Assembly (NCBI GenBank): GCA_039654915.1
Contig: JBDJPA010000012.1
Coordinates: 1,364,001-1,428,000 of the forward strand
Source: Aquilaria yunnanensis
Lineage: Eukaryota > Streptophyta > Magnoliopsida > Malvales > Thymelaeaceae
Direction: 5' to 3'
Length of the DNA: 64,000 nt
The position numbers and the translations under genes are program-made. The first letter of the stretch is position 1, and every line of letters begins with the position of its first letter. Positions 14,903 through 64,000 of the stretch are shown one piece after another. The notes under the pieces are model-generated. The model had not been told where the DNA came from, ran no database searches, and saw only the letters and a list, made by a program, of their open reading frames with translations.

Positions 14903-14911
14903 TCTAAGAAT

Positions 14912-26730: not shown

Positions 26731-27001
26731 ACTCATCCAATCAATTAAGTTCCTATTTCTCTCCCCAAGTTTCTCGAGAGTTTTCTACCCTATCACTTGA
26801 TCCATTATAACTAATGTTCTTTTCCAAGTTCCACAGTCAACCACTTTAAAGTTCACTAGCAAAACTCTCATGCCAAAGAAGTTCTCATCAGCTACTAATG
26901 TGTTTATAGGATACAGCTTACAAGCTCAAACAAATATAGCACTCTTAACTAGATATGTAAGTGTTGGTATAGGAACATTTAAAAATTTCTTATTAAAAAA
27001 G

Positions 27002-33987: not shown

Positions 33988-34152
33988 AAGATCAGCATGT
34001 CGAGGCTTGGCTTCAATTTCTTCCACAGTCAACGGAGTCTTGCACTCAGCGAGAAGCCTCTTCCTTATCCTGTTCGGAACCCGGGAGTATGACGGCATTT
34101 CACTCATCGGAAACTCTAAGGCCACCGCTCTCCCCGTCTCCGGTGATTCCAT
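33988..34152 (-). pseudogene. TCP11: captured N-terminus of a TCP11-like gene
   Basis: An ATG at 34152-34150 encodes 55 residues starting MESPETGRAVALEFPMSEMP and ending ECKTPLTVEEIEAKPRHADL, then a stop. Plant T-complex protein 11 homologues start with the same arrangement: a hydrophobic ALEFPxS block, a RIPKRLRRRL-like basic segment, then TPxTVEEIEAKLRxADLRRQ. The match stops exactly after HADL, where unrelated sequence follows, as expected at a capture breakpoint or exon end. The frame is open upstream to 34635, which would be captured 5' UTR or promoter. Lacking the rest of the protein, it is a gene fragment, not a functional gene. Confidence 0.6.
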
Positions 34153-44586: not shown

Positions 44587-44930
44587 TGTTGATACCCAAT
44601 TTCGTCCGGCTTAAAAATAAAAAAAATTAATTAAATAAAAAAATTAATTATTTATTTTAAAAATTAAAACTTATTAAAAAAAAAAAAATTATTGAATTAC
44701 TTAATTAATTGATTACTTAATTAAAAAAATGATGATAGTAATAATGGCAATATTATTTTAGGGGCGTTCTTTTTAGTTTGTATGTTAAAAAAAAAATGGG
44801 AAGAAAAAAAAATAATAATAATAATAAATAATAATAATAAATTAAATCTAAATTAATTAAAATTAAAAATTATTAATTAATTAATTAATTAAAAAGAAAA
44901 AGAAGAAAAAAACAAAAATAATAATAAAAA

Positions 44931-45866
44931 ATGGGGAGAGTGGCCGACAGAGGCTCCCCCTCCCCTTATCCCTTATCTTCTCTCGCATTCTCGATCTTCA
45001 TCTATTCTCTCCCTCTCACTCAACGCACACACACAGAAAAAAAAAAAAAAAGACAACTCCTCTCTCTCTCACGGAGAGCTCTGACTCTCTGGCTCCCTCC
45101 ATCGAGCTCTCGTCTCTCCCTCTCCAAACAAAGCTCTCTCGTTCTCCTTCTTTCTCCCATCACCAGCTCGCCTCGCCTCCGTCTCTTGTCCCGCCGCCGC
45201 TGCCAGCCCGTCGTCACTGCCGCTTCTTCCCCTGTCTCCGTCAATCCGTCACAGCTCTGCCCGCCGCTTCTGTCCGTCGCTCCAGCCACATCGCCGCCAC
45301 CTCCAGTCTCCACCTGTCCCGTCCGGCGCCGCGCCCACCTCTGCTGCGTGCAGGCACATCTCCCTCGCTCGCGCTCCATCACCGACGCCCATCACTGCTT
45401 CGCCGCGACGCCGCGTTGCTCCACCGGCCAAGGACGACGCCTCCAGTCCTCCGCCGCGCCAGCACCGTTCCGGATCCCCCTCGCGCCGTGCTCCCGGTGT
45501 CCGCCGTCGCGTCCAGTCACCTCTCCTGCTTTTTCCCTTCGTGTCGCGCCACCTACTCCGTCGTGCCTTCCTCCCGCCGCCTCCTTGCCTGCTGCCATAT
45601 TTCCGATCGCCGACGTCGCGCCTGAAGCTTCAGCCTCCTCCCGTCACATCCGTGCCCGCCGCGTCTTCCCTGCCGTTCTTCCTTCACCATCGTGTCTTCC
45701 CTCCACCGCCACCTCGCCTCGCGCCACCGGAAGGCCTCCCTCCTCCATCTGCTGCGCTTCCTCCTCTGCCACGTCTCCCAGCCGTCGCCTCCTCCACCGT
45801 CGTGCCACTCCTGCTCACGCCTCCCTGTTGCGGAAACAAGAAACAGAAACGAAAACAACGATTTGA
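44931..45866 (+). CDS. 311-codon Ser/Pro/Arg-rich open frame inside the LTR
   Basis: Starts MGRVADRGSPSPYPLSSLAF and is rich in Ser, Pro, Arg and Leu with no domain. The same block is open in several other frames on both strands, which is expected from its CT- and CCG-rich composition. It is identical in the 3' LTR copy (61048-61983). The ctctctctc and ccgccgcc content resembles a transcribed plant 5' leader, so this may be the R/U5 leader rather than a protein gene. Confidence 0.2.
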   Translation: MGRVADRGSPSPYPLSSLAFSIFIYSLPLTQRTHTEKKKKRQLLSLSRRALTLWLPPSSSRLSLSKQSSLVLLLSPITSSPRLRLLSRRRCQPVVTAASSPVSVNPSQLCPPLLSVAPATSPPPPVSTCPVRRRAHLCCVQAHLPRSRSITDAHHCFAATPRCSTGQGRRLQSSAAPAPFRIPLAPCSRCPPSRPVTSPAFSLRVAPPTPSCLPPAASLPAAIFPIADVAPEASASSRHIRARRVFPAVLPSPSCLPSTATSPRATGRPPSSICCASSSATSPSRRLLHRRATPAHASLLRKQETETKTTI

Positions 45867-46192
45867 CCAAGTCAAAATTTTAAAAATTTTGGGTAAAATT
45901 ATTACTTAGCCCTTAATTCTTTTTATTTTATCCATTTAAGTTATTAATTTTATTTTCCTTACAGATTCATCACTGACAGCAAACTTTTTGTTTGTTTTTA
46001 TTTTTCTTTGTTTCTTCTATTATTAGTTGATTTTATCTTACATTAATTTTGATCATTAAGAGAACAACATGCGACTTTGATTTGATATGTATATTCATGT
46101 ATATTTATTGGATTTTAGAATAGTTTAATTGTAATTCTTGTAATACATTAAATGTGTATCAATTTATTAGAAATCCGTCCTAAGATGTAACA

Positions 46193-46362
46193 TATATCCA
46201 TGTCCAAATGATTCGGTTAGAATCCATGGCTTGGATATTAATTAAAATTAAATAACGAGATCCTAAGACGGATCATATCCATGTCCAAATGATTCGGTTA
46301 GAATCCATGGCTTGGATATTAAATTCCATATCCGAATGATCCGGCAGGATCCACGGTTTGGA
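46193..46362 (+). repeat. 38-46 base hairpin motif, three copies in the LTR
   Basis: The motif atatccatgtccaaatga, then ttcggttagaatccatgg, then cttggatat occurs at 46193-46239 and 46275-46320, with a shorter relative at 46329-46362. Two more relatives lie at 47845-47881 and 47891-47930 (ccgtgtccaaatgactcggc). ATATCC/GGATAT and CATG pair, giving a hairpin. The same copies recur in the 3' LTR as far as the window reaches. Confidence 0.75.
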
Positions 46363-46670
46363 AGAACAAATTATATCCTAAACTTCTAATAAAAAATAAT
46401 AATCGCCGCGACATTCAACAAAACCACCACCAGTCGCAAATAAATCGTTCGCCATCGTTCGACATCGAATCAGGAAAAAAAAATCCGTTCGCGAATCCTC
46501 AGCTCGATTAAAAGTCGATTCAAATTCACGGTATAATCCTTCTTTAATCCTCCAAATTTTTTTTATTTTCATTTATACAAGTCACTAACCTTTTTTATTA
46601 TTTCTGCAGAGTTAGCAATAATCTTTGTATGTTTATTATTATTATTGTTATTATTATTCTATTCAAGTCA

Positions 46671-47480
46671 CTAACCATTTAATTTCTGCTATACTAACAA
46701 CTAACTTCACTAACCACTAACTTTTATTATTATTGTTATCACTAACATTTAATTTCTGCTATACTAACAATTAATTATGCTAACCACTAACTTTTATTAT
46801 TATTGTTATCACTAACATTTAATTTTTGTTATACTAACAATTAATTGTGCTAACCAATAACTTTTAGTATTATTGTTATCACTAACATTTAATTTTTGCT
46901 ATACTAACAATTAATTGTGCTAACCACTAACTTTTATTATTATTGTTATCACTAACATTTAATTTTTGTTATACTAACAATTAATTGTGCTAACCAATAA
47001 CTTTTAGTATTATTGTTATCACTAACATTTAATTTTTGTTATACTAACAATTAATTGTGCTAACCAATAACTTTTAGTATTATTGTTATCACTAACATTT
47101 AATTTTTGTTATACTAACAATTAATTGTGCTAACCACTAACTTTTAGTATTATTGTTATCACTAACTTTTATGTTTGTTATACTAACAATTAATTGTGCT
47201 AACCACTAACTTTTAGTATTATTGTTATCACTAACTTTTATGTTTGTTATACTAACAATTAACTGTGCTAACCACTAACTTTCATTATTATTGTTATCAC
47301 TAACCATTTAATTTTTGCTATACTAACAATTAACTGTGCTAACCACTAACTTTCATTATTATTGTTATCACTAACCATTTAATTTTTGCTATACTAACAA
47401 TTAACTGTACTGACCGCTAACTTTTATTATTATTGTTGTCACTAACCATTTAATATTTGTTATACTAACAACTAACTTTA
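46671..47480 (+). repeat. 70-bp tandem repeat in the 5' LTR
   Basis: About 11 copies of a 70-bp unit containing actaacatttaatttttgtt, atactaacaattaattgtgc and taaccactaacttttattat. Unit starts fall at 46741, 46811, 46881, 46951, 47021 and 47091. Outer copies are more diverged than the middle ones. The matching array in the 3' LTR is at 62788-63597. Confidence 0.9.
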
Positions 47481-48193
47481 CTAACTTTATTTATTGTTAT
47501 TTAATTTTTCTTTATTTTATGGTTAAACTCATTTCATTTAAAGAAATTAGCCATAAAAAAATATATATGTAAAATAAATCTGAACCATGTTGTTAAGTCA
47601 AAAAAATTGTTTTAGTTCATGGTATATTGGCTGGAAACTGTCTCGTGCCCGCTTTTGAGCTGCTTCACCTGGTGAAGAGGGTCTGGCTGAGTAACAACGC
47701 CCCGTACCATGATCAAAGATTTTTTTAAACTCTTTGATTTCTTTAAATTAGCTTCTTATTTTTTAACTAAATAAATTAAATAAATATAAAGATAAAAATC
47801 CATATTTACAATATGGATAAAATTCTTTAAAATTTCGTCAAATTCCGTGTCCAAATGACTCGGCAGAGTCTATGGTTCGGAATCAAATCTTCCGTGTCCA
47901 AATGACTCGGCAGAGTCCATGGTTCGGAAGTATCAAATTTTATACAAATTAACTTAAAAATCCACATTTCGACTAATTCAGTTAAAATTTCTAAATTAAC
48001 TGAAAGTTATTTAAAAGCAAAGTAAAACAAAATTAAAATCAACTAAGGTGCCAATTTTGGGCGCTATAACAAAGTTGTTTTAGCGTAACCGTACTCCCGA
48101 TCCCCGAACTCTCGCAGACCAATTTTAAGGTGACCAATCGACCTAAGAAAACTGATTGGTGGCGACTCCCGAAAACCCGACGTTGCCACAGCT

Positions 48194-48213
48194 TGGCGAC
48201 TCCGCTGGGGACC
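48194..48213 (+). other. primer binding site
   Basis: TGGCGACTCCGCTGGGGACC begins with TGG, the complement of a tRNA CCA end, and lies three bases after the inferred LTR end. PBSs of this form are reported for Ogre-type elements and assigned to tRNA-Arg. A near copy (tggcgactccc) lies at 48166-48176 inside the LTR end. Confidence 0.75.
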
Positions 48214-49140
48214 CCGGTTAGTGAGTCGAGCCTAAAACTTGATTTGTTTTGTTTTGCTTTGCTGCTTATTATGTGGATTTATATGTTATATTTACTTATT
48301 CTAAACATGCATAATGCATTCACAATATGAAGCTCTATACCCGAGCTTTCTCAAATCGAATACAATTCTTTCTAAGCGGAATTGGTGTTGCTGTCCTTGT
48401 GAGGCCACGGTCTCCAAGCCTTCACCGGTTTCAAAGTAGCAAAGTAGTGTATTGCCTTCTGAGACGGTTAGTCTCTGCATGGGCCCACGAAAAGCTACGA
48501 CTCGAATTAATCCATTCCTTACATTAACCCTAGAGGGTAAGGAATCGGGCTGTCACTATAATTTAGTGACGGGATTCGGGAACTATCCCTGGCCTTTTTG
48601 ATAAGCCACCTTATGCATATAGAATTCCCCACTTAACCATAGAACTGACCATAGAATTTCTACCATTTACCAACACTATAAGCATGTTATTGTTATGCCA
48701 TTTTTGTTACCTTATCCTTGGGTTTCTTTGTGTTTTATATTTATGGCTCAGACTTCTTTTCGTAATAGTTCATGTGTTATTAATTGATATCTAACTCGTT
48801 GTTAACCTTGTTATTCTTTTGTTATACTTCTGTTTTGTACAATTTTTCGTCATGCATCAAAACCACGCACCAAACTGTAATAACTTTTGATCTTTCTAAA
48901 TGACAACTAAAAATCTCGAAGTTCTACGATAGTTGATAATCAAACTCACTTATTGCATGCATCCATTACATCAATCATGTGCATACAAAGTCTGATAAAA
49001 ACATAATCTCATTTTGTATTGCACGCATCCATTACATTAAATACATGCATACAAAGTCTGATAAAAACATAATCTCATTTTGTATTACATACATCCATCA
49101 CATCAATCAATTGCATATAAAGTTTAATAAAATGAATCTC
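48214..49140 (+). other. retrotransposon untranslated leader with a 72-bp repeat
   Basis: No coding support. Three copies of a roughly 72-bp unit (gcatacaaagtctgataaaa, acataatctcattttgtatt) lie at about 48950-49130, just before gag. Confidence 0.7.
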
Positions 49141-49202
49141 ACTTTAGAAACGGTAAAATTGGCCATCAACACCGATATCCAGCTCGGCTCCAAATAAGAT
49201 TA

Positions 49203-50305
49203 ATGGCAGAACAAACCAAAGGACGTCTCATAGATATGAAGTCCAATATAGAAAGTATGGCTGAGCAAATGAAACAGTTAATGGAGTTAGCGACCCAAGT
49301 CCCCGTCAATGACCCACAAGATCTAACCTATCCTCCCCAATTCACTCAGAACAGGTCTCAGTTCAAGAGAAGCTCTTTCATGACTCAGGTCTATCTGATA
49401 TCATTCATCTAAGGCACAGTCCAATTTTTGAAGAAAAGAAGCTCCTGCTTAAAGAAGAAGAGAATACTAAAAAAACTCAAGATCATAGAAAAGAGACTGC
49501 GGACCATTGAAAGAGGCACTTTATCTCTTTTGATGAACAATCTTTGCTTGATACCAGATGTTGTGATTCCCTCATACTTTAAGATACCTGACTTTGTGAA
49601 ATATGATGGAATAAGTTATCCCATCAATTATATTACGCTGTTTCTAAGGAAAATACAACCACTCACAAGAGACGAGAAAGTGTTGATAGCACTTTTTCAA
49701 AAAAAATCTTATAAAGTCAGCACTACAATGGTATCTAAGTCAAGGTCTGAGAAACATCAAAGCCTGGAATGACCTCGTTTAAGCTCTCAATCAGTAACTG
49801 TGAGCATGTTATAGACTTACCCCTAGATCACCAAATTCTCCAGAATATAGAGAAGAAGGAACAAGAGACCTTTAAGGAATACGCATAAAGGTGGAGACAC
49901 TTAGCCGCACAAGTTTAACCATCTATGATAGAAAGAGAATTGATCACCCTGTTTACCCAGGCATTAAATAGACCATTTCATGAAAAACTAGTTGGGAACA
50001 CTTCAAGTAGCTTTTCAAATGTGGTCTTATCTGGAGAAAAGATCGAATTTGGAATCAAAACAGAAAAGCTGGTCGATTCTTCAATTGAAGGATGTTTCAA
50101 TGAAAGAACCGGAGCTATCCAAAACATCATCTCCAAGTCCTATGATCCAATACCACTCAAGTTACAAGTGAAAGGATATCCTATTGAGACTGTAATCTTC
50201 AAGGCTCCCTCATCAGTGCCACATACCACTCATGGGAAGAAAGGCTACTCAAGTCGATTCAATTTTCACAAGTTACAAACCTGCTACCACCCATACCAAC
50301 GGTAA
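49203..50305 (+). pseudogene. gag of a Tat/Ogre-like Ty3-gypsy element, broken
   Basis: Gag would form the particle that packages the RNA. The N-terminal part starts MAEQTKGRLIDMKSNIESMA and continues EQMKQLMEL, a coiled-coil-like start typical of these gags. The central part reads VIPSYFKIPDFVKYDGISYP, the conserved PxFxxPDFxKYDGxxxP block, followed by HL-Y-RK-type sequence. Further on KEYA*RWRHLAAQV*PSM gives in-frame TAA codons at 49886-49888 and 49916-49918, followed by ELITLFTQALNRPFHEKLVG and EKIEFGIKTEKL. At least two frame changes separate these pieces. No CCHC knuckle is seen. The element cannot make an intact Gag. Confidence 0.8.
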
Positions 50306-53300
50306 CAAAGATCAAGTAGCCTCCTCTTCCAAGTTGGAATGACCCAAACGCCAAATATAAAATGTTCAATTGGGCATTGTGTGGCACTAAAACTCAAGGT
50401 CCAATAGTTGGTCGAGTTTAAATTCCTAGGCCATGATGTGATTGGTAAATGAAAGTGAAGATTTCGAGCTGGAATTACATTGATTTTGGAAGGACTCCAA
50501 GTCAGATCTGACCTAATAGTCCGCACACACTTTTGAATGACAGGGAATCCTTTGAATAAACTTGTATCTTTGAAAGCTTGCAAAAGTAATTTAATAGTAA
50601 AAATCTCCTAGATTTAGTCCAGAATCTAGGGTGTAGTCTTTGTTAAATGGACACCTGCTATTCTTTTTCTGGTACAACAAAAAGATGTGATGCGTGCATT
50701 CTACTACTTTCCATTTTTACACTCTTTGCCATTATACTATCCATTATTGCTATCACACTTTACTTTTTCGACAACCGGTAATTCTTTTTGTTCTCTAACA
50801 AAAAGATGTTGCGTGTGCATTCTACCACTTTTTAATTCCATTATTACATCTACACATTCTACCAATTTTTACCAAAAATTCAATTATTACACCTACACAT
50901 TCCACCACTTCTTACCAAAAATTCCATTTTTACATCCATCTCTCACTCCTTTCCATTATACTATCCATTATTGCCATCATACTTTGTTTTCTAAATGATA
51001 CTACTCGTGGGTGAAAATAAAAAGTTAAGGAAAATTTGATAGTAGTGATCTTGAAAGTGCTGCCAAATCTAGTAAGAAGGATTTCAAACGTTGCACCTCA
51101 ACCCTCAAAAGGAATTCACAGTGGTTATCAACATCCTTGCAAGAAGTCCGGGGTTAGCTTCCAAATCCAAAGAAGTTAGCTCTCATATTAAATGGCTTTA
51201 ATGGTCTCTCAATTCTCATGAATGCTCAATACAAAAAAAAATTCTCAGTTTTCCGCAACACAAGTTCCAACAAAGGAAAGAAGTTCATCCCTTCCATCAA
51301 AAGCCATTAAAGGGAAAAATCCAAAACAAAAAAAAGAGACTGAGAGCAAACACAAGCAGCTAAGGCCACTTGAATCATTTCACTTCAAGAGGGCTATGAT
51401 CTCAGTTCTTTGGCAACACAAACTCCGAAAAGAGAAATTCATCCCTTCCATCAAAAGACAACAAGGGAAAATTCAAAACCAAAAAGGACTGAGAACAAGC
51501 ACGAGCAAGCAAGGCCACTTGAGTCATCTCACTTCAAGAGAGTTATCAAGTATGTCATCACCATAGCTCACAAAAAAAAAAGAGGGAAACAAAAAAAAAA
51601 AAAGGAAAAGGGGCTCAAACTAGAAAAAAAAAAAGAAAAAAAAAGAAAAAAAGTGAGTTATGGATTCTAGACTGAAAACCTGCAAAGGCGGTCTAGAAGA
51701 CAAAAGCAACCCTCAAACCAAGCATACATAAAGATTACGATAGTTGGGGGGCAACAGATGAGGTCTAACTTTCTGAAAAAGGTGGCAAGTTTGAGGTCTT
51801 CACTATTGAATTTTTCACCGTAATCAGATATGCTCACGAGTAGTATTAAAAGACTCTTCTTCCACACCACTTAAACTTAACTTTCCTCAAACCGAACATC
51901 CTCATTCAGTTAAAAGACTATCATTGTGAATCATGTTTCAACCTTATTTAATACTGCTCATGAGTAGTATTAAAAGACCCTTCTTTCACACCACTCAAAC
52001 TTAACTTTACTCAGACCTAATATTTACCTCTTAATATTATTCTCATTCAGCTAAAAGACTGCTACAAAAAAAAAAAAACATTCAAACTTAATTTTCCTCA
52101 CGCCTAACAGTTACCTCTCGATATCATCCTCATTCAGCTAAAAGGCTATCCTTGTGAATCATGTTTATACCTTATTGCCTTGCATAGTTTATGTCTTTGA
52201 GTTGGAAAGGGAAGAGTGGCAGGATATTTTAATTAAAAATAAAGACCGTAAATTACTTTGTCAAGCTTTGCAAATTGATGAAAGTTTTTCTTTAAGGCGA
52301 AACCATTATTCATTAATGTATGTAGACTTAAAAGTGAGGAGATAGCTTGAGTCTTTCTTTAATAAGATGTGGTTCTTGTAAGAGAAATTTACGATCAAGT
52401 GCCATCACAAAGGTCTAGAAATCCTCAACCTTCTGTTAAAGGCGAGGTGATACCTTTTATCCATATAAATACCATATTCAGGAGGGCAAAGTAGTCTCTA
52501 CTAAGCGTAAGAAGAGTACTGCCAAGAAAGAAGCTCAATAGACAATGGGGTAAGTCTTATGGATCAGAACCTGAGTCTAAGGAAGAGCAATCATTCGGAC
52601 TGTAACATGAGGGTAAACAAGTGTCGACAAGGCCACAAGAAAAGGGACAATGAAACATTGAAAGTTAAGCCTTTGATAGTATGAAATCCATGACAATGGA
52701 TGAGTACCCGAAAGAGATATAAATTATGAGGCGGGCCAACTTTAAAGAAATTGAGGCCAAAATTCAAGAACAAGTCAAAGAAAGGGGATTTTGAAAAGAG
52801 TTGGGCTTTTGAGGCAGCAAACAAAAGCTGGAAAGCATAAAGAGATTCAATGATAGTCCAAGAAGGCCATCACAAAGAGGATCCAGTAAAACAAAGACAT
52901 GAAGAACTAGATCCATAAAAAAAAAAAACATCAATTCCACATGCTCTGCATTCATGCATTTCACATCATGCATGCATGGCTTTTGCATAATAGGAACCAA
53001 ACGGGAATCACATTCACAGCACAGTTACAGCAATATAAGCTGAGATCTCAATGTCATCAGCTCTTACCAATCTATCACTGGATACACAGCTAATATGCGG
53101 GACCAACCTGCATCAGGAATTCAAGGATAAAGTAGACAATATTGTCAAAAGCTTGGCTACCGATTCAATAATCGAGGCTACACCTAGAAGGATAGGATTG
53201 ACGCCAGCTAGTAGTATCCAAGATAAGAGATAGCTATAGCCAAGGATAAGGCAGATATCAAAAAAAAAATATAAAGTAGACAATATTGTCAAAAGCCTGG

Positions 53301-53646
53301 CAATTGATTCAATAATCGAGGCTACACCTGGTAGGACAGGATTGATGCCAGCTTAGCAGCATCCAAGATAAGAGATAGCTGTGGTCAAAGATAAGGCAGA
53401 CATCAAGAAATATTGTCGTTGAAACTTTGTCAAAAGCGGACAAAAGATTCAATAATCAAGGACTCGATCGACGTCAGCTGGGTGGAATATCAAAGATAAG
53501 AAATATCATTCACATCAAAATAAAGTAGGATCCACTTTTCCGGTTAAACGGCGGATACGGTACTCCGTGACTCTCAAGTCGGTTCTCTCAGTTGCCCATA
53601 ATAACTGATTCCTTCACCCCTTCTTTCTTTTACTTCCTCCTAGAAA
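50306..53646 (+). other. internal region without pol; several local duplications
   Basis: No protease, reverse transcriptase, RNase H or integrase motif is visible in any frame. The stretch holds direct repeats: about 170 bp twice at 51235-51550 (ggaaagaagttcatcccttc, aaggccacttgaatcatttc); ctcatgagtagtattaaaag and cattcagctaaaagact units at 51830-52160; and about 150 bp three times at 53115-53470. Open frames here are Lys/Ser-rich or short, without domains. Confidence 0.6.
53115..53470 (+). repeat. about 150-bp direct repeat, three diverging copies
   Basis: The unit carries aaagtagacaatattgtcaa, then gattcaataatcgaggctac, then atccaagataagagatagct. The third copy is shorter. It lies directly upstream of the first cargo ORF. 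Confidence 0.8.
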
Positions 53647-54195
53647 ATGGATCCTACTTTTTTCGCCTTGCGAAAGTATTTCCCTTCTCTCCCAATGAAC
53701 ATCCTCAAAAAGATCTACCAAGTTCGCTGTGAACGATTAAGAGCTCTGATGCATAAAGGAATCCCTGAAGATGTGCGGTGGTTAGTTGAAGCTAAGGTTC
53801 GTCTGGCAGGTGAAATCCCAGAGGCATTTGTGTCTCACATGCCTGGTGTAGGCAAAAGCTCTTATGCCAAAAAGCGAAGAGCGAGGAGACTAGGCGTCTG
53901 TCATAAATGCGGACGCTGGACCTGTAATACTAAATGTCGTTCTTTTGGGATGATCTCTGATAATCGAGAAGATAAAATACGATTCATTAAGAATGGCCTG
54001 AGTAAGGACTCATTGGATGATATCCAATTGACTCTTGAGACGCATTCTTGTGGATCCGTGCAACGTGAACTACTTGGTTTGTGGAGCATTTTTCATGAAG
54101 AACGAAACCGTTACAGTCTCGGGAATCTGACTGTAAATGACCCTGTTTGCCAGCTTGTAAGAAAACTGGATGGGAAGCAAATCCTCGACTCATAG
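53647..54195 (+). CDS. cargo ORF A: carlavirus-CRP-like zinc-finger protein
   Basis: An intact ATG ORF of 182 codons. A short basic stretch YAKKRRARRLG (residues 73-83) leads into a compact Cys cluster, C85-x2-C88-x4-C93-x3-C97, then a segment with FIKNGL at 113-118, and a C-terminal part with HSCG and NDPVC. The basic patch followed by a zinc-binding cluster and an F-I-x-x-G block resembles the cysteine-rich nucleic-acid-binding proteins of carlaviruses, which act in host nuclei and as silencing suppressors. That relation is by motif memory, not a search. A is about 70% identical in protein to B, without indels. Unlike B and C it lacks the upstream TATA module; homology with B's leader begins only at agtcggtt (about 53577). 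It lies in the sense of the retrotransposon, downstream of broken gag. Confidence 0.75.
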   Translation: MDPTFFALRKYFPSLPMNILKKIYQVRCERLRALMHKGIPEDVRWLVEAKVRLAGEIPEAFVSHMPGVGKSSYAKKRRARRLGVCHKCGRWTCNTKCRSFGMISDNREDKIRFIKNGLSKDSLDDIQLTLETHSCGSVQRELLGLWSIFHEERNRYSLGNLTVNDPVCQLVRKLDGKQILDS

Positions 54196-54340
54196 AAGCC
54201 GTTAATGCCGTTATTGGACGTAAAACCAGTGGAAGATGTGAGCCACAGTCACAATTACTGCACATACAGTTTGTTGTATTTGGAAAAGTTTGCATTTTCT
54301 TTTGACAGATGTACATGCTCTCCTAAGTGTAATCGACACG

Positions 54341-54363
54341 TTATCCATTTCATCGCTATAAAT
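54341..54363 (+). promoter_or_regulatory. TATA promoter module of cargo ORF B
   Basis: ttatccatttcatcgc followed by TATAAAT at 54357-54363, 81 bases before the ATG of ORF B. The same module precedes ORF C and LOG. Confidence 0.6.
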
Positions 54364-54443
54364 GCATGTTTTTCCAGTCGGTTATCTAAGTTTCCTTCAA
54401 TAACTAATTCCTTTCCATCATCTCTCAAATTCTTCTCTCATCA

Positions 54444-54992
54444 ATGGATTCTACTCTTTCTGTACTGCGAAAATACTTTCCTTCCCTCCCACTAAAAGTC
54501 CTTAAAAAGATCTACCTTGCTAGATGTGAAAGAATCAGAGTTTTTACACGCAAAGGCATTCCCGATAATGTGCAGTGGATAATTGAAGCTAAGGTCCGTT
54601 TGGCGGGTGAAGTTCCAGATGCATTCATGCCCCGCATGCCCGGTTTAGGTAAAAGCCGTTATGCCAAAAGGCGAAGAGCAAAGAGACTAGGCGTGTGTTA
54701 TAAATGTGGGCGATGGAATTGTAATACTAAATGTCGCTCTTTAGGATACATCTCCATAAATCGTGAAGATAAAAGAAAATTCATTAAGAATGGCCTGCGT
54801 AAGGAATCTCTGGAAGATATCCGAGAGACTCTTGAAACGCATTCTTGTGGAAAAGTGCAAGGTCAAATTGTCAAATTGTGGAGGACTTACCATAAAGAAC
54901 GAGACCGTTACAGTCTTGGGAATGTGACTGTAAACGACCCTGTCTGCCAGCTTGTAAGAAAACTGGATAGGAAGCAAGTCCTCGACTCATAG
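54444..54992 (+). CDS. cargo ORF B: carlavirus-CRP-like zinc-finger protein
   Basis: An intact 182-codon ORF, start context catcaATGG, colinear with A and C along its whole length. The Cys cluster sits at the same positions (85, 88, 93, 97), preceded by RYAKRRRAKRLG. C28, H133, C135 and C168 are also invariant among the three. The start MDSTLSVLRKYFPSLPL is amphipathic. It is preceded by a TATA module and followed by the shared tail sequence (gaagccattactaga..gtggaagatgagagccacag). Compared with A it has 54 amino-acid differences by eye, yet no stop or frame change. It is likely a nucleic-acid-binding protein, and a role in the host nucleus or in silencing suppression is inferred only from the resemblance. 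Confidence 0.75.
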   Translation: MDSTLSVLRKYFPSLPLKVLKKIYLARCERIRVFTRKGIPDNVQWIIEAKVRLAGEVPDAFMPRMPGLGKSRYAKRRRAKRLGVCYKCGRWNCNTKCRSLGYISINREDKRKFIKNGLRKESLEDIRETLETHSCGKVQGQIVKLWRTYHKERDRYSLGNVTVNDPVCQLVRKLDRKQVLDS

Positions 54993-55126
54993 AAGGCATT
55001 GAAGCCATTACTAGATATAAATCAGTGGAAGATGAGAGCCACAGTCATGATTGCTGTACATATAAGCTGTCATTTGTCTTTTCTTTTGACAATAATGTAC
55101 TTGCTTCTGTAAGTGTAATTAACGCA

Positions 55127-55150
55127 TTATCCCTTTCATCACTATAAATA
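55127..55150 (+). promoter_or_regulatory. TATA promoter module of cargo ORF C
   Basis: ttatccctttcatcac followed by TATAAATA at 55143-55150, 59 bases before the ATG of ORF C. It matches the ORF B module at nearly every position. Confidence 0.6.
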
Positions 55151-55208
55151 TGTGTTAGTTATTTTCGTTTCCTACAATCACTAATTTCTTTCTTTGCCTC
55201 CTTCATCA

Positions 55209-55757
55209 ATGGAGTCTTCTCTTTCCGCCCTACGAAAGTATTTTCCTTCCTTCCCAATAAATGTTCTTAAAAAGATTTATCAAGCTAGATGTGAACGATT
55301 CAGAGTATTTATGCACAAAGGCATTCCTGATAATGTGCGGTGGCTAATTGAAGCTAAGGTTCGTTCAGCTGGTGAAGTTCCAGAAGCGTTCTTTCCCCGT
55401 ATGCCCGGCTTTGGTAAAAGCGCTTATGCCAAAAAAAGAAGAGCAAAGAGGCTAGGCGTTTGTCATAATTGTGGATGGTGGATTTGCGGTAATAAATGTC
55501 GTGCTCCAGGAGTGATCACCAGAAATCGTAATGATAGAATAAGATTCATTAAGAATGGCTTGCGTAAGGAATCTCTAGAAGATATTCGAGAGGTTCTTGA
55601 AGCGCATTCTTGCGGAATAGTGCAATTTGAGGTTGTTGGATTATGGATAATTTTTCAAAAAGAACGAGATCGTTACAGTCTTGGGAATCTGACCCTAAAC
55701 GACCCTGTTTGCCAGTTTGTGAGAAAGCTAGATGAGATGCAAATCACCGATTCATAG
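55209..55757 (+). CDS. cargo ORF C: carlavirus-CRP-like zinc-finger protein
   Basis: I chose the ATG at 55209 (catcaATGG, same context as B); the frame is open a few codons further upstream but without an ATG. It gives 182 codons starting MESSLSALRKYFPSFPI. The basic stretch AYAKKRRAKRLG and the Cys cluster at residues 85, 88, 93 and 97 are in register with A and B. Between the cysteines C has WW and I where A and B have GR and W, so the finger loop varies while the ligands do not. Third member of a tandem triplication with a period of about 780 bp. Downstream the tail sequence expands into the 87-bp tandem array. Confidence 0.75.
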   Translation: MESSLSALRKYFPSFPINVLKKIYQARCERFRVFMHKGIPDNVRWLIEAKVRSAGEVPEAFFPRMPGFGKSAYAKKRRAKRLGVCHNCGWWICGNKCRAPGVITRNRNDRIRFIKNGLRKESLEDIREVLEAHSCGIVQFEVVGLWIIFQKERDRYSLGNLTLNDPVCQFVRKLDEMQITDS

Positions 55758-55802
55758 AAAGCATTGAAGCCATTACTGGACGCAAAGCCAGTGGAAGACG
55801 AG

Positions 55803-56345
55803 GATCAAAGTCACGATTACTGTACGTGCTAGCTGTCGCTTTTGAAATTTTCCTCCCCTTTTGGTTATAATGTATCCACTCCTGACGTGAACCAAAGTCA
55901 CGATTACTGTACGTACTAGCTGTCGCTTTTGAAATTTTCCTCCCCTTTTGGTAATAATGTATCCACTCCTGACGTGAACCAAAGTCACGATTACTGTACG
56001 TACTAGCTGTCGCTTTTGAAATTTTCCTCCCCTTTCAGCGATAATGTATCCACTCCTGACATGAGCCATAGTTACGATTACTGTACGTGCTAGCTGTCGC
56101 TTTTGAAATTTTCCTCCCCTTTGGCAATAATGTACCCACTCCTGACACGGACTACTGTATATAGCTGCTACTTTTGAAATTTTCCTTCCCTTCCAACAAT
56201 CACATACCTACTCCTGACGTAAGCTACAGTAGTGACTACTGTACATGCTAGCAGCTATTTTGAAAATTTTCCTCCTCTTTTAACGATAGTGTACCCATAC
56301 CTGACCAGAGTCATACTCGTGACTACTGTGTATAGCTGGCAATAA
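55803..56345 (+). repeat. 87-bp tandem repeat derived from the cargo ORF 3' flank
   Basis: Units start at 55807, 55894 and 55981, then more diverged copies follow to about 56345. The unit contains aaagtcacgattactgtacg, tactagctgtcgcttttgaa and attttcctccccttttgg, then aataatgtatccactcctga. The first unit is continuous with the tail of ORF C, and the same tail follows A and B once each, so the array grew from that flank. Its last copy leads into the LOG promoter. Confidence 0.85.
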
Positions 56346-56376
56346 TGTATCCACTCTTGAAAATAAAATTATTGCC

Positions 56377-56399
56377 TTATCTCTTCATCTCTATAAATA
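56377..56399 (+). promoter_or_regulatory. TATA promoter module of the LOG gene
   Basis: ttatctcttcatctc followed by TATAAATA at 56392-56399, 33 bases before the ATG. Same order and spacing as the modules of ORFs B and C, with one base less between ttatc and the TATA box. The transcript leader would be very short. Confidence 0.6.
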
Positions 56400-56431
56400 T
56401 ATCCTCTTTTCTCACAAGGATAAGGATAGGA

Positions 56432-57061
56432 ATGGAGAAAACCCCAACTCGTAAATCCCGAAGTATTTGTGTATTTTCTGGGGCTTTTCCTGGAAAAGAT
56501 GAAGAGTATTTAAAGGCAGCCAACCATTTGGGTAGAGTATTAGCTGAGCGAAAAATACATTTAGTTTATGGAGGAGGTAGTGTCGGATTAATGGGAGGTG
56601 TAGCATCAGCAGCATCTTTAGGAGGAAGTCAAGTTCTGGGCATTATCCCTGGACCTCTGAAATTTATTTCTGGGGGCACGATTGGAGAAGAATTAGTGGT
56701 TAAAAATTTGCAAGAGCGTGTGTTACAAATGCTTTTAAATGCTGATGCTTTTATCGCTCTACCAGGTGGTTTTGGCACATTGGGAGAAGTCTTTCAAATT
56801 GCTTCCATGGCCCAACTTAATTTGCATAAGAAACCCATTGGGCTTTTAAATGTTAACAATTTCTTTACAGGTCTGATAGCTTTTATGGATTATGCTATGC
56901 AGAAGAATTTCATATCAAGAGTGGCACGGCGAATCATAATATCCGCAACAACTGCTGAAGAATTGCTAGATAAAATACAAGCTTTTGTTCCTGAACCAGA
57001 TCCAGCAATGATTCAGATAGACTGGACACGACAGTCTTTCCCGACCAGTTCACTCCCATAA
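56432..57061 (+). CDS. LOG: LOG-like cytokinin riboside 5'-monophosphate phosphoribohydrolase
   Basis: LOG enzymes release active cytokinin bases from nucleotide precursors in one step, in cytosol and nucleus. I take the ATG at 56432 because it follows the TATA module and fits the family start; the frame is also open upstream to 56345. The product is 209 residues, normal for LOG. Visible are the Rossmann start SICVFSGAFPGK (11-22), LVYGGGSVGLMG (44-55), an Arg in the QER block (96), ADAFIALPGGFGTLGEVF (104-121) with the PGGxGTxxE signature and its Glu 119, and KKPIGLLNV (133-141). Plant LOG genes have several introns; this copy has none. It is diverged from ordinary plant LOGs, for example at GPLKFISGGTIGEE. 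It lies after the three cargo ORFs inside the retrotransposon, on the same strand. Whether the enzyme is active needs assay. Confidence 0.9.
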   Translation: MEKTPTRKSRSICVFSGAFPGKDEEYLKAANHLGRVLAERKIHLVYGGGSVGLMGGVASAASLGGSQVLGIIPGPLKFISGGTIGEELVVKNLQERVLQMLLNADAFIALPGGFGTLGEVFQIASMAQLNLHKKPIGLLNVNNFFTGLIAFMDYAMQKNFISRVARRIIISATTAEELLDKIQAFVPEPDPAMIQIDWTRQSFPTSSLP

Positions 57062-57589
57062 TGGTCCTCTACTCACCCTTTTGAAGTATTGTGGAAGAAA
57101 GAAGCGATCTGATCCGTTTTTCTTGTCCTTTAGTTTTATTATCAGCATTTTCTTTCGCGTTTCAGTTTTTCTTTTCAGGGAATTTCTTTTTATAAGATAG
57201 TTTCGTCCATGCTGATATTAAAACCATGCGACAATGCCTTTAGGTTGGAATGGCTGAGTAAAGAGTAATTTTTATTACTCTTGAGACGCATCCTATTAGG
57301 TCTACTAGGCATAACATTTTGGGGTAGTTAAGCTTTAACCTTATTCGGATGACATATCTCACAAGGGAATCTATATTTACTGAAGAAAATATTAGATGAA
57401 CCTTGAATATTGATTCCAAACATCCACTCCATTTACATAATTTGTCAGTGTTATTGTCATCATCAAGATTCACTCGTTTTATCGAAGCCTAATTCTTTGC
57501 GCTCGCCAATTATGAAAATTCACACTTTCGAAGAAAATTATTCCAATTTCAATTGCTTTTATATAAATTTCGCTCGAGGTCCTAAGGAA

Positions 57590-58890
57590 AGCTCCTTAGC
57601 CTCAAAATCAATTTTCATCATCGGGGTTTTAAGGATGGAACCTTTGCCTCGAAAATAATCAATTTTCATCATCGGGGTTTTAAGGATGGAACCTTTGCCT
57701 CGAAAACAATCAATTTTCATCATCGGGGTTTTAAGGATGGAACCTTTGCCTCGAAAATAATCAATTTTCATCATCGAGGTTTTAAGGATGGAACCTTTAC
57801 CTCGACATCAATCAATCAATCCGAGGTTTTAAGGATGGAACCTTTGCCTCGAAAACAATCAATTTTCATCATCGGGGTTTTAAGGATGGAACCTTTGCCT
57901 CGAAAACAATCAATTTTCATCGGGGTTGTAAGGATGGAACCTTTGCCTCGAAAATAATCAATTTTCATCATCAGGGTTTTAAGGATGGAACCTTTGCCTT
58001 GAAAAGAATCAATTTTCATCATCGAGGTTTTAAGGATGGAACCTTTACCTCGACATCAATCAATCAATTCGAGGTTTTAAGGATGGAACCTTTATCTCGA
58101 CATCAATCAATCAATCCGGGGTTTTAAGGATGGAACCTTTGCCTCGAAAACAATCAATTTTCATCATCGGGGTTTTAAGGATGGAACCTTTGCCTCGAAA
58201 ATAATCAATTTTCATCATCGAGGTTTTAAGGATGGAACCTTTACCTCGACATCAATCAATCAATCCGAGGTTTTAAGGATGGAACCTTTGCCTCGAAAAC
58301 AATCAATTTTCATCATCGGGGTTTTAAGGATGGAACCTTTGCCTCGAAAACAATCAATTTTCATCGGGGTTGTAAGGATGGAACCTTTGCCTCGAAAATA
58401 ATCAATTTTCATCATCAGGGTTTTAAGGATGGAACCTTTGCCTTGAAAAGAATCAATTTTCATCATCGAGGTTTTAAGGATGGAACCTTTACCTCGACAT
58501 CAATCAATCAATTCGAGGTTTTAAGGATGGAACCTTTATCTCGACATCAATCAATCAATCCGGGGTTTCAAGGATGGAACCTTTGCCTCGAGATCAATCA
58601 ATCAATCCGAGGTTTTAAGGATAGAACCTTTGCCTTGAGATCAATCAATCAATCCGGGGTTTTAAGGATGGAACCTTTGCCTCGAGATCAATTATCAATC
58701 CGAGGTTTTAAGGATGGAACCTTTGCCTCGACATCAATCAATCAATCCAAGGTTTTAAGGATGGAACCTTTGCCTCGACATCAATCAATCAATTCGAGGT
58801 TTTAAGGATGGAACCTTTGCCTCGAAATCAATCAATCAATCCGAGGTTTTAAGGATGGAACCTTTGCCTCGAGAACAATCAATCATCAAT
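57590..58890 (+). repeat. hairpin repeat array 1 (47-51 bp units)
   Basis: About 25 copies of cgaggttttaaggatggaac followed by ctttgcctcg and a spacer of either aaaataatcaattttcatca or acatcaatcaatcaatc. CGAGG/CCTCG and AAGG/CCTT pair in each unit. The block at 57816-58080 recurs at 58260-58524 (offset 444), a higher-order duplication. Open frames across it are repeat artefacts. Confidence 0.95.
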
Positions 58891-59715
58891 TTTTCTTAAA
58901 CGATAAGAGAGTTCTTATCGTAGAGGTTCTAAGGTAGGGCCCTTAACCTCAAACTTGCAACGATAGGAGAGTTCCTATCGTTGAGGTTCTAAGGAGAGTT
59001 CCTTAAACCTCAAACAATCAATCATCAATTTTTCTTCAAATGATAAGAGAGTTTTTATCGCAGAGGTTCTAAGGTAGGGCCCTTAACCTCAAACTTGCAA
59101 CGATAGGAGAGTTCCTATCGTCAAGGTTCTAAGGAGAGTTCCTTAAACCTCAAACAATCAATCATCAATTTTTCTTAAACGATAAGAGAGTTCTTATCGT
59201 AGAGGTTCTAAGGTAGGGCCCTTAACCTCAAACTTGCAACGATAGGAGAGTTCCTATCGTTGAGGTTCTAAGGAGAGTTCCTTAAACCTCAAACAATCAA
59301 TCATCAATTTTTCTTCAAACGATAAGAGAGTTCTTATCGCAGAGGTTCTAAGGTAGGGCCCTTAACCTCAAACTTGCAACGATAGGAGAGTTCCTATCGT
59401 CAAGGTTCTAAGGAGAGTTCCTTAAACCTCAAACAATCAATCATCAATTTTTCTTAAACGATAAGAGAGTTCTTATCGTAGAGGTTCTAAGGTAGGGCCC
59501 TTAACCTCAAACTTGCAACGATAGGAGAGTTCCTATCGTTGAGGTTCTAAGGAGAGTTCCTTAAACCTCAAACAATCAATCATCAATTTTTCTTCAAACG
59601 ATAAGAGAGTTCTTATCGCAGAGGTTCTAAGGTAGGGCCCTTAACCTCAAACTTGCAACGATGGGAGAGTTCCTATCGTCGAGGTTCTAAGGAGAGTTCC
59701 TTAACCTCAAACAAT
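58890..59715 (+). repeat. hairpin repeat array 2 (140-bp double-hairpin units)
   Basis: Six units starting at 58901, 59041, 59180, 59320, 59459 and 59599. Each has two self-complementary blocks: cgataagagagttcttatcg or cgataggagagttcctatcg, and gaggttctaagg paired with ccttaaacctc. Alternating 139 and 140 bp units give a 279-bp higher-order period. Confidence 0.95.
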
Positions 59716-60290
59716 CAATCATTCAGTCCATCTTACAACGATAGAACCTTTCCTATCGTTAGAGGTTCTAAGGACCTTTCCTTAAACCTCAAACAAACAA
59801 TCAATCATTCAGTCCATCTTACAACGATAGAACCTTTCCTATCGTTAGAGGTTCTAAGGACCTTTCCTTAAACCTCAAACAAACAATCAATCATTCAGTC
59901 CATCTTACAACGATAGAACCTTTCCTATCGTTAGAGGTTCTAAGGACCTTTCCTTAAACCTCAAACAAACAAACAATCATTCAGTCCATCTTACAACGAT
60001 AGAACCTTTCCTATCGTTAGAGGTTCTAAGGACCTTTCCTTAAACCTCAAACAAACAATCAATCATTCAGTCCATCTTACAATGATAGAACCTTTCCTAT
60101 CGTTAGAGGTTCTAAGGACCTTTCCTTAAACATCAAACAAACAATCAATCATTCAGTCCATCTTATAACGATAGAACCTTTCCTATCGTTAGAGGTTCTA
60201 AGGACCTTTCCTTAACCTCAAACAAACAATCAATCATTCAGTCCATCTTACAACGATAGAACCTTTCCTATCGTTAGAGGTTCTAAGGTA
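59716..60290 (+). repeat. hairpin repeat array 3 (86-bp units)
   Basis: Seven units from 59739 at about 86-bp spacing: cgatagaacctttcctatcg, then agaggttctaaggacctttc, then cttaaacctc, then a spacer aaacaaacaatcaatcattc. The two stems are kept, with loop sequence different from array 2. Confidence 0.95.
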
Positions 60291-60600
60291 GGACCCTTAA
60301 CCTCAAAACAATCAATTTTTCTTCAAACGATAGGAGAGTTCCTTTCGTCGAGGTTCTAAGGTAGGACCCTTAACCTCAAAAACAATTAATTTTCCTTCAA
60401 ACGATAGGAGAGTTCCTATCGTCGAGGTTCTAAGGTAGGACCCTTAACCTCAAAATCATCAATTTTCCTTCAAACGATAGGAGAGTTCCTATCGTCGAGG
60501 TTCTAAGGTAGCACCCTTAACCTCAAAATTATCAAATTTTTCCTTCAATGATAGGAGAGTTCCTATCGCAGAGGCTCTAAGGAAGATTCCTTAACCTCTG
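60291..60600 (+). repeat. hairpin repeat array 4 (about 70-bp units)
   Basis: About five units of cgataggagagttcctatcg and gaggttctaaggtaggaccc followed by ttaacctcaaaa, with a spacer atcaattttccttcaa. It ends with a variant unit before the polypurine tract region. Confidence 0.9.
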
Positions 60601-60635
60601 AGTTTAGGCGACGAGAAAATTCTCAATGCCTAGCT

Positions 60636-60729
60636 AAGCCGGACGAAATTTGATAACGACTTTGCATACATCATGTCCCATGAAGCATGCAAAGGGGGGC
60701 AGCTGTTGATACCCAATTTCGTCCGGCTT
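60636..60729 (+). other. 15-bp inverted repeat enclosing the polypurine tract
   Basis: aagccggacgaaatt (60636-60650) is the exact reverse complement of 60715-60729, which lies inside the first 26 bases of the 3' LTR. The polypurine tract lies in the 64-base loop. Confidence 0.8.
60690..60703 (+). other. polypurine tract
   Basis: caaaggggggcagc immediately precedes the 3' LTR start TGTTGATACC, as expected for the plus-strand primer of reverse transcription. Confidence 0.8.
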
Positions 60730-63700
60730 AAAAATAAAAAAAATTAATTAAATAAAAAAATTAATTATTTATTTTAAAAATTAAAACTTATTAAAAAAAA
60801 AAAAATTATTGAATTACTTAATTAATTGATTACTTAATTAAAAAAATGATGATAGTAATAATGGCAATATTATTTTAGGGGCGTTCTTTTTAGTTTGTAT
60901 GTTAAAAAAAAAATGGGAAGAAAAAAAAATAATAATAATAATAAATAATAATAATAAATTAAATCTAAATTAATTAAAATTAAAAATTATTAATTAATTA
61001 ATTAATTAAAAAGAAAAAGAAGAAAAAAACAAAAATAATAATAAAAAATGGGGAGAGTGGCCGACAGAGGCTCCCCCTCCCCTTATCCCTTATCTTCTCT
61101 CGCATTCTCGATCTTCATCTATTCTCTCCCTCTCACTCAACGCACACACACAGAAAAAAAAAAAAAAAGACAACTCCTCTCTCTCTCACGGAGAGCTCTG
61201 ACTCTCTGGCTCCCTCCATCGAGCTCTCGTCTCTCCCTCTCCAAACAAAGCTCTCTCGTTCTCCTTCTTTCTCCCATCACCAGCTCGCCTCGCCTCCGTC
61301 TCTTGTCCCGCCGCCGCTGCCAGCCCGTCGTCACTGCCGCTTCTTCCCCTGTCTCCGTCAATCCGTCACAGCTCTGCCCGCCGCTTCTGTCCGTCGCTCC
61401 AGCCACATCGCCGCCACCTCCAGTCTCCACCTGTCCCGTCCGGCGCCGCGCCCACCTCTGCTGCGTGCAGGCACATCTCCCTCGCTCGCGCTCCATCACC
61501 GACGCCCATCACTGCTTCGCCGCGACGCCGCGTTGCTCCACCGGCCAAGGACGACGCCTCCAGTCCTCCGCCGCGCCAGCACCGTTCCGGATCCCCCTCG
61601 CGCCGTGCTCCCGGTGTCCGCCGTCGCGTCCAGTCACCTCTCCTGCTTTTTCCCTTCGTGTCGCGCCACCTACTCCGTCGTGCCTTCCTCCCGCCGCCTC
61701 CTTGCCTGCTGCCATATTTCCGATCGCCGACGTCGCGCCTGAAGCTTCAGCCTCCTCCCGTCACATCCGTGCCCGCCGCGTCTTCCCTGCCGTTCTTCCT
61801 TCACCATCGTGTCTTCCCTCCACCGCCACCTCGCCTCGCGCCACCGGAAGGCCTCCCTCCTCCATCTGCTGCGCTTCCTCCTCTGCCACGTCTCCCAGCC
61901 GTCGCCTCCTCCACCGTCGTGCCACTCCTGCTCACGCCTCCCTGTTGCGGAAACAAGAAACAGAAACGAAAACAACGATTTGACCAAGTCAAAATTTTAA
62001 AAATTTTGGGTAAAATTATTACTTAGCCCTTAATTCTTTTTATTTTATCCATTTAAGTTATTAATTTTATTTTCCTTACAGATTCATCACTGACAGCAAA
62101 CTTTTTGTTTGTTTTTATTTTTCTTTGTTTCTTCTATTATTAGTTGATTTTATCTTACATTAATTTTGATCATTAAGAGAACAACATGCGACTTTGATTT
62201 GATATGTATATTCATGTATATTTATTGGATTTTAGAATAGTTTAATTGTAATTCTTGTAATACATTAAATGTGTATCAATTTATTAGAAATCCGTCCTAA
62301 GATGTAACATATATCCATGTCCAAATGATTCGGTTAGAATCCATGGCTTGGATATTAATTAAAATTAAATAACGAGATCCTAAGACGGATCATATCCATG
62401 TCCAAATGATTCGGTTAGAATCCATGGCTTGGATATTAAATTCCATATCCGAATGATCCGGCAGGATCCACGGTTTGGAAGAACAAATTATATCCTAAAC
62501 TTCTAATAAAAAATAATAATCGCCGCGACATTCAACAAAACCACCACCAGTCGCAAATAAATCGTTCGCCATCGTTCGACATCGAATCAGGAAAAAAAAA
62601 TCCGTTCGCGAATCCTCAGCTCGATTAAAAGTCGATTCAAATTCACGGTATAATCCTTCTTTAATCCTCCAAATTTTTTTTATTTTCATTTATACAAGTC
62701 ACTAACCTTTTTTATTATTTCTGCAGAGTTAGCAATAATCTTTGTATGTTTATTATTATTATTGTTATTATTATTCTATTCAAGTCACTAACCATTTAAT
62801 TTCTGCTATACTAACAACTAACTTCACTAACCACTAACTTTTATTATTATTGTTATCACTAACATTTAATTTCTGCTATACTAACAATTAATTGTGCTAA
62901 CCACTAACTTTTATTATTATTGTTATCACTAACATTTAATTTTTGTTATACTAACAATTAATTGTGCTAACCAATAACTTTTAGTATTATTGTTATCACT
63001 AACATTTAATTTTTGCTATACTAACAATTAATTGTGCTAACCACTAACTTTTATTATTATTGTTATCACTAACATTTAATTTTTGTTATACTAACAATTA
63101 ATTGTGCTAACCAATAACTTTTAGTATTATTGTTATCACTAACATTTAATTTTTGTTATACTAACAATTAATTGTGCTAACCAATAACTTTTAGTATTAT
63201 TGTTATCACTAACATTTAATTTTTGTTATACTAACAATTAATTGTGCTAACCACTAACTTTTAGTATTATTGTTATCACTAACTTTTATGTTTGTTATAC
63301 TAACAATTAATTGTGCTAACCACTAACTTTTAGTATTATTGTTATCACTAACTTTTATGTTTGTTATACTAACAATTAACTGTGCTAACCACTAACTTTC
63401 ATTATTATTGTTATCACTAACCATTTAATTTTTGCTATACTAACAATTAACTGTGCTAACCACTAACTTTCATTATTATTGTTATCACTAACCATTTAAT
63501 TTTTGCTATACTAACAATTAACTGTACTGACCGCTAACTTTTATTATTATTGTTGTCACTAACCATTTAATATTTGTTATACTAACAACTAACTTTACTA
63601 ACTTTATTTATTGTTATTTAATTTTTCTTTATTTTATGGTTAAACTCATTTCATTTAAAGAAATTAGCCATAAAAAAATATATATGTAAAATAAATCTGA

Positions 63701-64000
63701 ACCATGTTGTTAAGTCAAAAAAATTGTTTTAGTTCATGGTATATTGGCTGGAAACTGTCTCGTGCCCGCTTTTGAGCTGCTTCACCTGGTGAAGAGGGTC
63801 TGGCTGAGTAACAACGCCCCGTACCATGATCAAAGATTTTTTTAAACTCTTTGATTTCTTTAAATTAGCTTCTTATTTTTTAACTAAATAAATTAAATAA
63901 ATATAAAGATAAAAATCCATATTTACAATATGGATAAAATTCTTTAAAATTTCGTCAAATTCCGTGTCCAAATGACTCGGCAGAGTCTATGGTTCGGAAT
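60704..64000 (+). mobile_element. 3' LTR, cut by the window end
   Basis: Repeats 44587-47883 at a constant offset of 16117 with no net length change. I see one mismatch (62894 G against 46777 A). It includes the second copy of the 311-codon low-complexity frame (61048-61983), the hairpin motif (62310-62479) and the 70-bp array. By comparison with the 5' LTR about 307 bases are missing at the right. Confidence 0.95.
62788..63597 (+). repeat. 70-bp tandem repeat in the 3' LTR
   Basis: Same copies in the same order as 46671-47480, including copy number. The only difference seen is g at 62894 (attgtgc) where the 5' LTR has attatgc. Confidence 0.9.

Follow-up and report, generated by a model that had tools for sequence, protein, structure and literature searches.

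A pol-less LTR retrotransposon of Aquilaria yunnanensis with a tandem array of carlavirus NABP-like genes and a LOG-like gene

The window analyzed here is a 64,000-nucleotide stretch of the Aquilaria yunnanensis genome (contig JBDJPA010000012.1, positions 1,364,001 to 1,428,000). Its 3' part is occupied by a long terminal repeat (LTR) retrotransposon of 19,721 bp (44587-64307), whose 3' end lies 307 bp outside the window and was read from the same contig. Between the LTRs we find four intact open reading frames (ORFs) in sense orientation, as a preliminary description of this DNA had claimed. Three are tandem genes of 182 amino acids each (ORF1, 53647-54195; ORF2, 54444-54992; ORF3, 55209-55757) that resemble the nucleic acid-binding proteins (NABPs) of carlaviruses, also called cysteine-rich proteins (CRPs). 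The fourth is a LOG-like gene that is open from 56345 to 57061 (238 amino acids), with a probable true start at the MEKT of 56432 (56432-57061, 209 amino acids). Within the element, all features from the 5' LTR to the 3' LTR are given on the plus strand.

The boundaries of the element are those of an LTR retrotransposon: paired TG...CA LTRs, a target site duplication (TSD), a primer-binding site (PBS), and a polypurine tract (PPT). The 5' LTR (44587-48190) contains tandem repeats of ~70 bp at 46668-47485, and the 3' LTR occupies 60704-64000 within the window and continues to 64307. Each is 3,604 bp long, and they differ by one mismatch and no gaps (99.97% identity). The TSD, ATAAG, stands at 44582-44586 and again directly after 64307. 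The PBS, TGGCGACTCCGCTGGGGA (48194-48211), is complementary to the 3' end of tRNA-Arg(ACG); its reverse complement fits the 3' end of that gene plus CCA, the gene having been matched once genome-wide by a pattern that leaves out the discriminator base. The PPT, AAAGGGGGGC (60691-60700), was read from the sequence and has identical letters in a pol-bearing copy. The near-identical 3.6-kb LTRs, PBS, and PPT of the preliminary description are thus confirmed, as are the complete 3' LTR and the TSD that it had proposed to test. At literature substitution rates of 0.7-1.3e-8 per site per year, the single LTR difference places the insertion roughly 10,000-20,000 years ago. Each LTR also contains an open frame of 311 amino acids rich in Pro, Ser, and Arg (44931-45866 and 61048-61983), probably a by-product of GC-rich composition.

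The three tandem proteins resemble two Pfam families of carlavirus NABP/CRP (PF01623 and PF05515). Each of them exceeds the gathering score of both families, with E-values between 5.7e-8 and 4.8e-6 for Viral_NABP and between 1.2e-6 and 1.7e-4 for Carla_C4, which makes the earlier label of zinc-finger-like proteins more precise. Among 33 aligned homologs, including ORF1-3, 31 match Viral_NABP and 30 match Carla_C4 at E<=0.001, while none of ten shuffled controls of ORF1 and ORF2 matches either family. The conserved core in the family alignment is a basic KKRRAK stretch followed by a CX2CX4CX3C finger. The likeness to the carlavirus proteins consists of a basic stretch resembling a nuclear signal and then a C4 finger, together with the Pfam matches. 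The elements' proteins differ in their length of 182 amino acids, their conserved N- and C-terminal extensions, their finger spacing, and their encoding as tandem arrays by a retrotransposon. No NABP match was found in PHROGs or among solved structures, and structure predictions for the NABP-like proteins are weak (mean pLDDT 53 and 63).

The fourth ORF encodes a divergent LONELY GUY (LOG)-like protein. Its closest solved structure is Arabidopsis At2g37210 (E 1e-51), and it retains both the PGGxGTxxE motif and the RK-motif Arg. Of the best 120 homologs, 116 were of suitable length; among these, 115 also lack the Lys of that motif, 112 retain the Arg, and 114 retain the final Glu of PGGxGTxxE. 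Since absence of the Lys is common to its relatives, we place the ORF in a separate LOG-like group.

The DNA upstream of each frame points to likely internal promoters in three of the four cases. TATAAAT occurs 87 nt upstream of ORF2 (54357-54363), 66 nt upstream of ORF3 (55143-55149), and 40 nt ahead of the start that is probable for LOG (56392-56398). Across copies of the element, the motif lies 40-127 nt upstream of ORF2 (21/21 frames), ORF3 (21/21), ORF3-like frames (15/15), and LOG (21/21), with a chance expectation of ~0.03 per 160 nt, although the copies are related and the cases are not independent. Upstream of ORF1 it was found in none of 14 frames, five further ORF1 frames having too little upstream sequence. 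The earlier suggestion that the ORFs have their own promoters thus probably holds for ORF2, ORF3, and LOG, but not for ORF1.

Upstream of ORF1, gag is broken and pol is absent. A gag remnant at 49152-50080, spread over three frames with stops, matches residues 2-316 of the 1,106-amino acid gag ORF of a pol-bearing copy (L022) at 58-69% identity, whereas a Pfam scan of its separate pieces found no significant gag match. Searching 48191-60703 by tblastn with the reverse transcriptase (RT) and RNase H-integrase frames of L022 returned nothing at E<=1e-3. Both the broken gag and the lack of pol had been predicted from the window, and both are borne out. Where pol lies in the pol-bearing sibling, the window copy has filler without recognised genes (50303-53646), which is shared in part with the other two pol-less copies inspected. 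Downstream, tandem repeats of ~87 bp separate ORF3 from LOG (55797-56315), and the ORF3-LOG distance, judged by eye, varies among copies in ~87-bp steps. Further tandem-repeat arrays lie between LOG and the PPT (57574-60598).

The element belongs to a high-copy family. Within the 842-Mb assembly (345 contigs, of which eight of 87-120 Mb suggest n = 8), at least 150 places encode ORF3 at 100% amino acid identity, and at least 150 encode LOG at a rounded 100%. Twenty copies were sampled over four contigs from the ORF3 matches, in stretches that reach ~3 kb upstream of ORF3 and so stop short of showing whether pol is present; one of them, L045, is cut by the ends of the sequence taken. All 20 have open NABP frames with a LOG frame behind them, with three NABP frames in seven copies and four in 13, and the LOG frame has at least 209 amino acids in 19.

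Three further copies were read over ~20 kb each. In two of these (L021 and L025) nothing matches the pol of L022, and part of the window's filler is present; their gag carries the same internal deletion, which joins residues 1-54 to residues 259-507 of the L022 gag. This deletion differs from the window's gag remnant, so that pol-less derivatives are of two or more kinds. One of these two copies is also young, its LTRs being 99.93% identical across 2,839 bp. The L020/L021 locus (G000:C1:88822000-88841800) has LTR ends that are only ~83% alike, yet its ORF3 protein is 100% identical to that of the window; its LTRs are chimeric or recombined, or it is an old insertion with conserved genes.

The third copy, L022 (C3:30515172-30539502), is pol-bearing. 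It spans 24.3 kb, with LTRs 99.49% alike, a TSD of ACATC, and the window's PBS and PPT. It encodes Retrotrans_gag, G-patch, RVT_1, RT_RNaseH, RVT_3, and rve (integrase) domains, with pol split over two frames, and then three NABP genes and LOG. Among 118 RT matches scored, 101 fall within one open frame of 1,144 amino acids. Eight copies with this frame were chosen blind to the downstream genes. In all eight, three NABP genes lie within 4-9 kb past the point where RT begins, with ORF3 open in each, and seven of the eight have LOG. The same internal order thus recurs in the host genome, as expected for full copies of such an element. However, the preliminary description had these genes replacing pol, and we reject this for the family: in pol-bearing copies, the same genes follow a Tat-type pol. 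The module is therefore a standard part of the family, and the window copy is a pol-less derivative. Its mobilisation in trans by proteins of its siblings is plausible, because it shares its PBS, PPT, and LTR 3' end (88% alike over ~440 bp) with the pol-bearing copy.

The family is best placed among Ty3/gypsy elements in the Tat clade, the window copy being assigned by its relationship to its siblings. A tRNA-Arg PBS is linked to Ogre, and the window element has one. RVT_3 stands beside RT_RNaseH in siblings L022 and L048, and an additional RNase H distinguishes the Tat clade according to PMC6317226, which also gives tRNA-Arg among primers of non-chromoviruses. The family shares gag, the additional RNase H, and extra ORFs with Ogre, Retand, and TatI-III as described there, where the extra ORFs encode a plant mobile domain in 57% of Ogre and Transposase_28 in 23% of Retand; here, they are a sense NABP array and LOG instead. 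No plant mobile domain was found among the ORFs scanned against Pfam, a scan that began at gag in the pol-bearing copy. Retand, as presented in PMC11963269, likewise has a long region between pol and the 3' LTR, often with tandem repeats, as well as extra genes and some non-autonomous members, but the extra ORFs there run antisense and for the most part encode TRP28. LARD-type elements are large non-autonomous LTR elements. The window copy resembles them in having LTRs, a PBS, and a PPT without pol, and differs from them in its four intact and apparently selected ORFs.

The module shows signs of purifying selection at the codon level. The mean pairwise ratio of nonsynonymous to synonymous differences (pN/pS) among copies, with the window included, is 0.156 for ORF1 (17 sequences), 0.160 for ORF3-like frames (14 sequences), and 0.149 for LOG (20 sequences), with synonymous differences of up to 22-24% among copies in the ORF1 and LOG comparison. 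ORF3 itself has no amino acid changes among copies, but it served as the bait. The three paralogs within the window give substitution ratios (dN/dS) of 0.21-0.36. Comparison of the window with the RT-selected copies, using only frames of exact window length from the first Met, gives dN/dS of 0.17-0.19 for ORF1 (7 copies), 0.47-0.67 for ORF2 (8), and 0-0.18 for LOG (7). Because copy pairs are not independent, all of these ratios are descriptive.

Relatives of the module occur in other plants, among them several rosids and Orobanche. At E<=0.01, two protein searches found 122 and 284 relatives of the NABP proteins, and the best 120 of each were kept; Xanthoceras, Populus, Acer, Citrus, Parasponia, and Orobanche are named among the matches listed. 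ORF3 is 48-57% identical to full-length matches in named species of other genera, with a conserved Cys and basic core. A precomputed domain list assigns NABP and LOG-type domains together to two Citrus gene models (P0082 and P0103) and one from Acer (P0120), whereas our own Pfam scan at the gathering score found neither domain in P0082, only the LOG-type domain in P0103, and only NABP domains in P0120. Relatives of the LOG group include many copies in Reevesia and are also seen in Paulownia and Populus, among the matches listed. The single genome of Reevesia pubescens has many annotated LOG-type "hypothetical proteins" (among P0127-P0221), which are possibly unrecognised transposon genes. Another NABP gene model, P0085 of Orobanche minor, has an N-terminal part that we take, by eye, to be like an Athila-type retrotransposon aspartic protease; Pfam did not confirm it as a protease. 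The NABP module may thus also be present in another retrotransposon lineage.

LOG-type genes in plant retrotransposons have precedents. Two Athila-like elements similar to LOGL4 were reportedly described by Steinbauerova et al. in 2011. A published survey also reports a LOG (YgdH) domain from Citrus and Populus LTR elements (PMC9289625). These elements resemble ours in carrying a LOG-type extra ORF in a plant Ty3/gypsy element, and the relevant section of that paper, supplements aside, mentions no NABP array. The marker of that survey, as given there, was reverse transcriptase, so pol-less copies would escape it. Among titles and abstract openings, with supplements and most subscription papers outside the scope, we found no account of plant retrotransposons with NABP genes. 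A LOG gene in a Ty3/gypsy element is thus known, and we found no published NABP array in such elements. Another comparison is with Ty3/gypsy elements of orchids that carry an AlkB-type m6A demethylase, the product of an accessory gene considered to aid the element against host control (PMC9289625 and PMC12786077). That protein and host group are different, and binding and demethylation were assayed there.

We are nearly certain of the anatomy and family relationship of the window element. Overall, the explanation that we favor, and consider probable, is that it is a young pol-less member of the Tat clade and that the NABP array and LOG form an accessory module that helps the element. Pol-bearing members encode gag, G-patch, RT, RNase H, the additional RNase H, and integrase, followed by the sense NABP array and the LOG-like gene, and the window copy would move with proteins supplied by these siblings. 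The NABP proteins, with their basic stretch and C4 zinc finger, would bind nucleic acid in the nucleus. By analogy with reports on carlavirus CRPs, they might serve the element as suppressors of host silencing or as regulators of element or host transcription. The LOG-like enzyme may raise active cytokinin locally, or hold a changed yet selected activity; local cytokinin would favor dividing meristem cells, in which new insertions could be inherited. The internal TATA boxes would allow most of the module to be expressed apart from the full-length RNA. These specific functions of the two kinds of protein are put forward tentatively, as possible more than probable. A broader proposal is somewhat less likely again: that eudicot Ty3/gypsy elements have long carried a host-manipulation module partly common to plant RNA viruses. 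A flexivirus-type nuclear NABP array would counter silencing or reprogram transcription, and a dedicated LOG-like clade would promote the cytokinin-rich dividing cells that found the next generation; plant viruses may have acquired their CRP gene from elements of this kind, or the transfer may have gone the other way.

Several observations weigh against the accessory-module reading. The Pfam match spans only ~30-90 of the 182 residues. Furthermore, one carlavirus CRP is described in PMC8839810 with a basic nuclear signal followed by a CX2CX12CX4C finger, and the CX2CX4CX3C finger found here does not have that spacing; we therefore treat the NABP-like ORFs as relatives of the family and do not class them as viral CRPs. 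No viral homolog was recovered directly: an IMG/VR scan for NABP relatives was empty. The LOG-like ORF lacks the Lys of the RK motif (RV in place of RK) and scores 98.8 bits against the NCBIfam LOG equivalog, whose cut-off is 300, so that its cytokinin activity is uncertain. The cytokinin-activating enzyme of the preliminary description is thus a LOG-type protein, but a divergent one by the RK motif and the equivalog cut-off. ORF2 has a relaxed ratio (mean pairwise pN/pS 0.598; 21 sequences), and pooled ratios over related copies count common changes repeatedly. Some copies depart from the pattern: among those selected by ORF3, L041 has a LOG frame of only 156 amino acids, L029 has no open ORF1 frame of at least 120 amino acids, and two ORF1 frames have 166; among the eight selected by RT, ORF1 is shortened in one, and pol-bearing L055 (G000:C7:33880444-33884844) has three NABP genes and no LOG in the 4.4 kb taken. 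The ORF3-based sampling behind the 20 copies favors young, intact ones, and the RT bait came from a copy that was itself found through ORF3. Finally, the functional steps are inferred, with expression, binding, and enzyme activity being predictions.

Other explanations can be weighed against the same evidence. NABP and LOG could be passengers, captured once, useless to the element, and spread by its amplification. Plant LTR elements are known to capture genes (PMC7264820), and the window copy (LTRs 99.97% alike) and another pol-less copy (99.93%) are so young that intact frames would be expected anyway. However, pN/pS is ~0.15 for ORF1 and LOG despite up to 22-24% synonymous difference, relatives 48-57% identical to ORF3 in other genera conserve the Cys and basic core, RT-selected copies keep NABP in 8/8 and LOG in 7/8 cases, and the arrays comprise three or four open frames. 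We consider such cargo improbable. That the genes form an ordinary host locus, or an assembly join, flanked by LTRs by chance is excluded for practical purposes: nothing was found in its favor, and the TSD is perfect and the LTRs near-identical. The same gene order also recurs across the genome (20/20 ORF3-selected and 7/8 RT-selected copies), which argues that neither a join nor a trapped host locus is involved, and we reject both. The preliminary description had itself named these outcomes, together with the lack of any other copy, as what would undo it; the TSD, the at least 150 ORF3 places, and the repeated order contradict them.

It is also conceivable, though unlikely, that the NABP array serves the element in structure or packaging, as an RNA-binding protein of nucleocapsid or chaperone type, and not a silencing suppressor or transcription regulator. 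The family-wide basic stretch before the C4 finger is compatible with this, and the arrays might hint at a dose requirement; yet TATA boxes precede every frame except the first, the genes are separate ORFs distal to pol with no gag fusion, and the pol-bearing copy already has its own gag. We give about the same low weight to the idea that the likeness to viral NABPs reflects convergence on a basic C4 finger and not common descent. Only the core aligns, its cysteine spacing differs, and E-values are modest (5.7e-8 to 1.7e-4), but all three ORFs match two (related) viral families above gathering scores, as do 31 and 30 of the 33 homologs and none of the ten shuffles.

Extra ORFs are common in plant LTR retrotransposons and are mostly without an assigned use. 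Here, the extra genes are recognisable relatives of genes whose roles have been tested elsewhere; they seem to be under selection, have multiplied inside the element, and turn up again in other eudicots. They thus pose a testable question about retrotransposon-encoded suppressors or regulators and the manipulation of plant hormones. The NABP ORFs also give a gene family of plant viruses a cellular relative. Plant genes labelled "LOG" or "Viral nucleic acid binding" may belong to transposons.

Outside the element, the window contains two pairs of inverted repeats (12978-13301 with 26403-26733, and 22999-23354 with 27051-27392; 75-82% identity), which are probably pieces of other transposons. 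On the minus strand, a 230-amino acid open stretch at 33985-34677 resembles a host exon.

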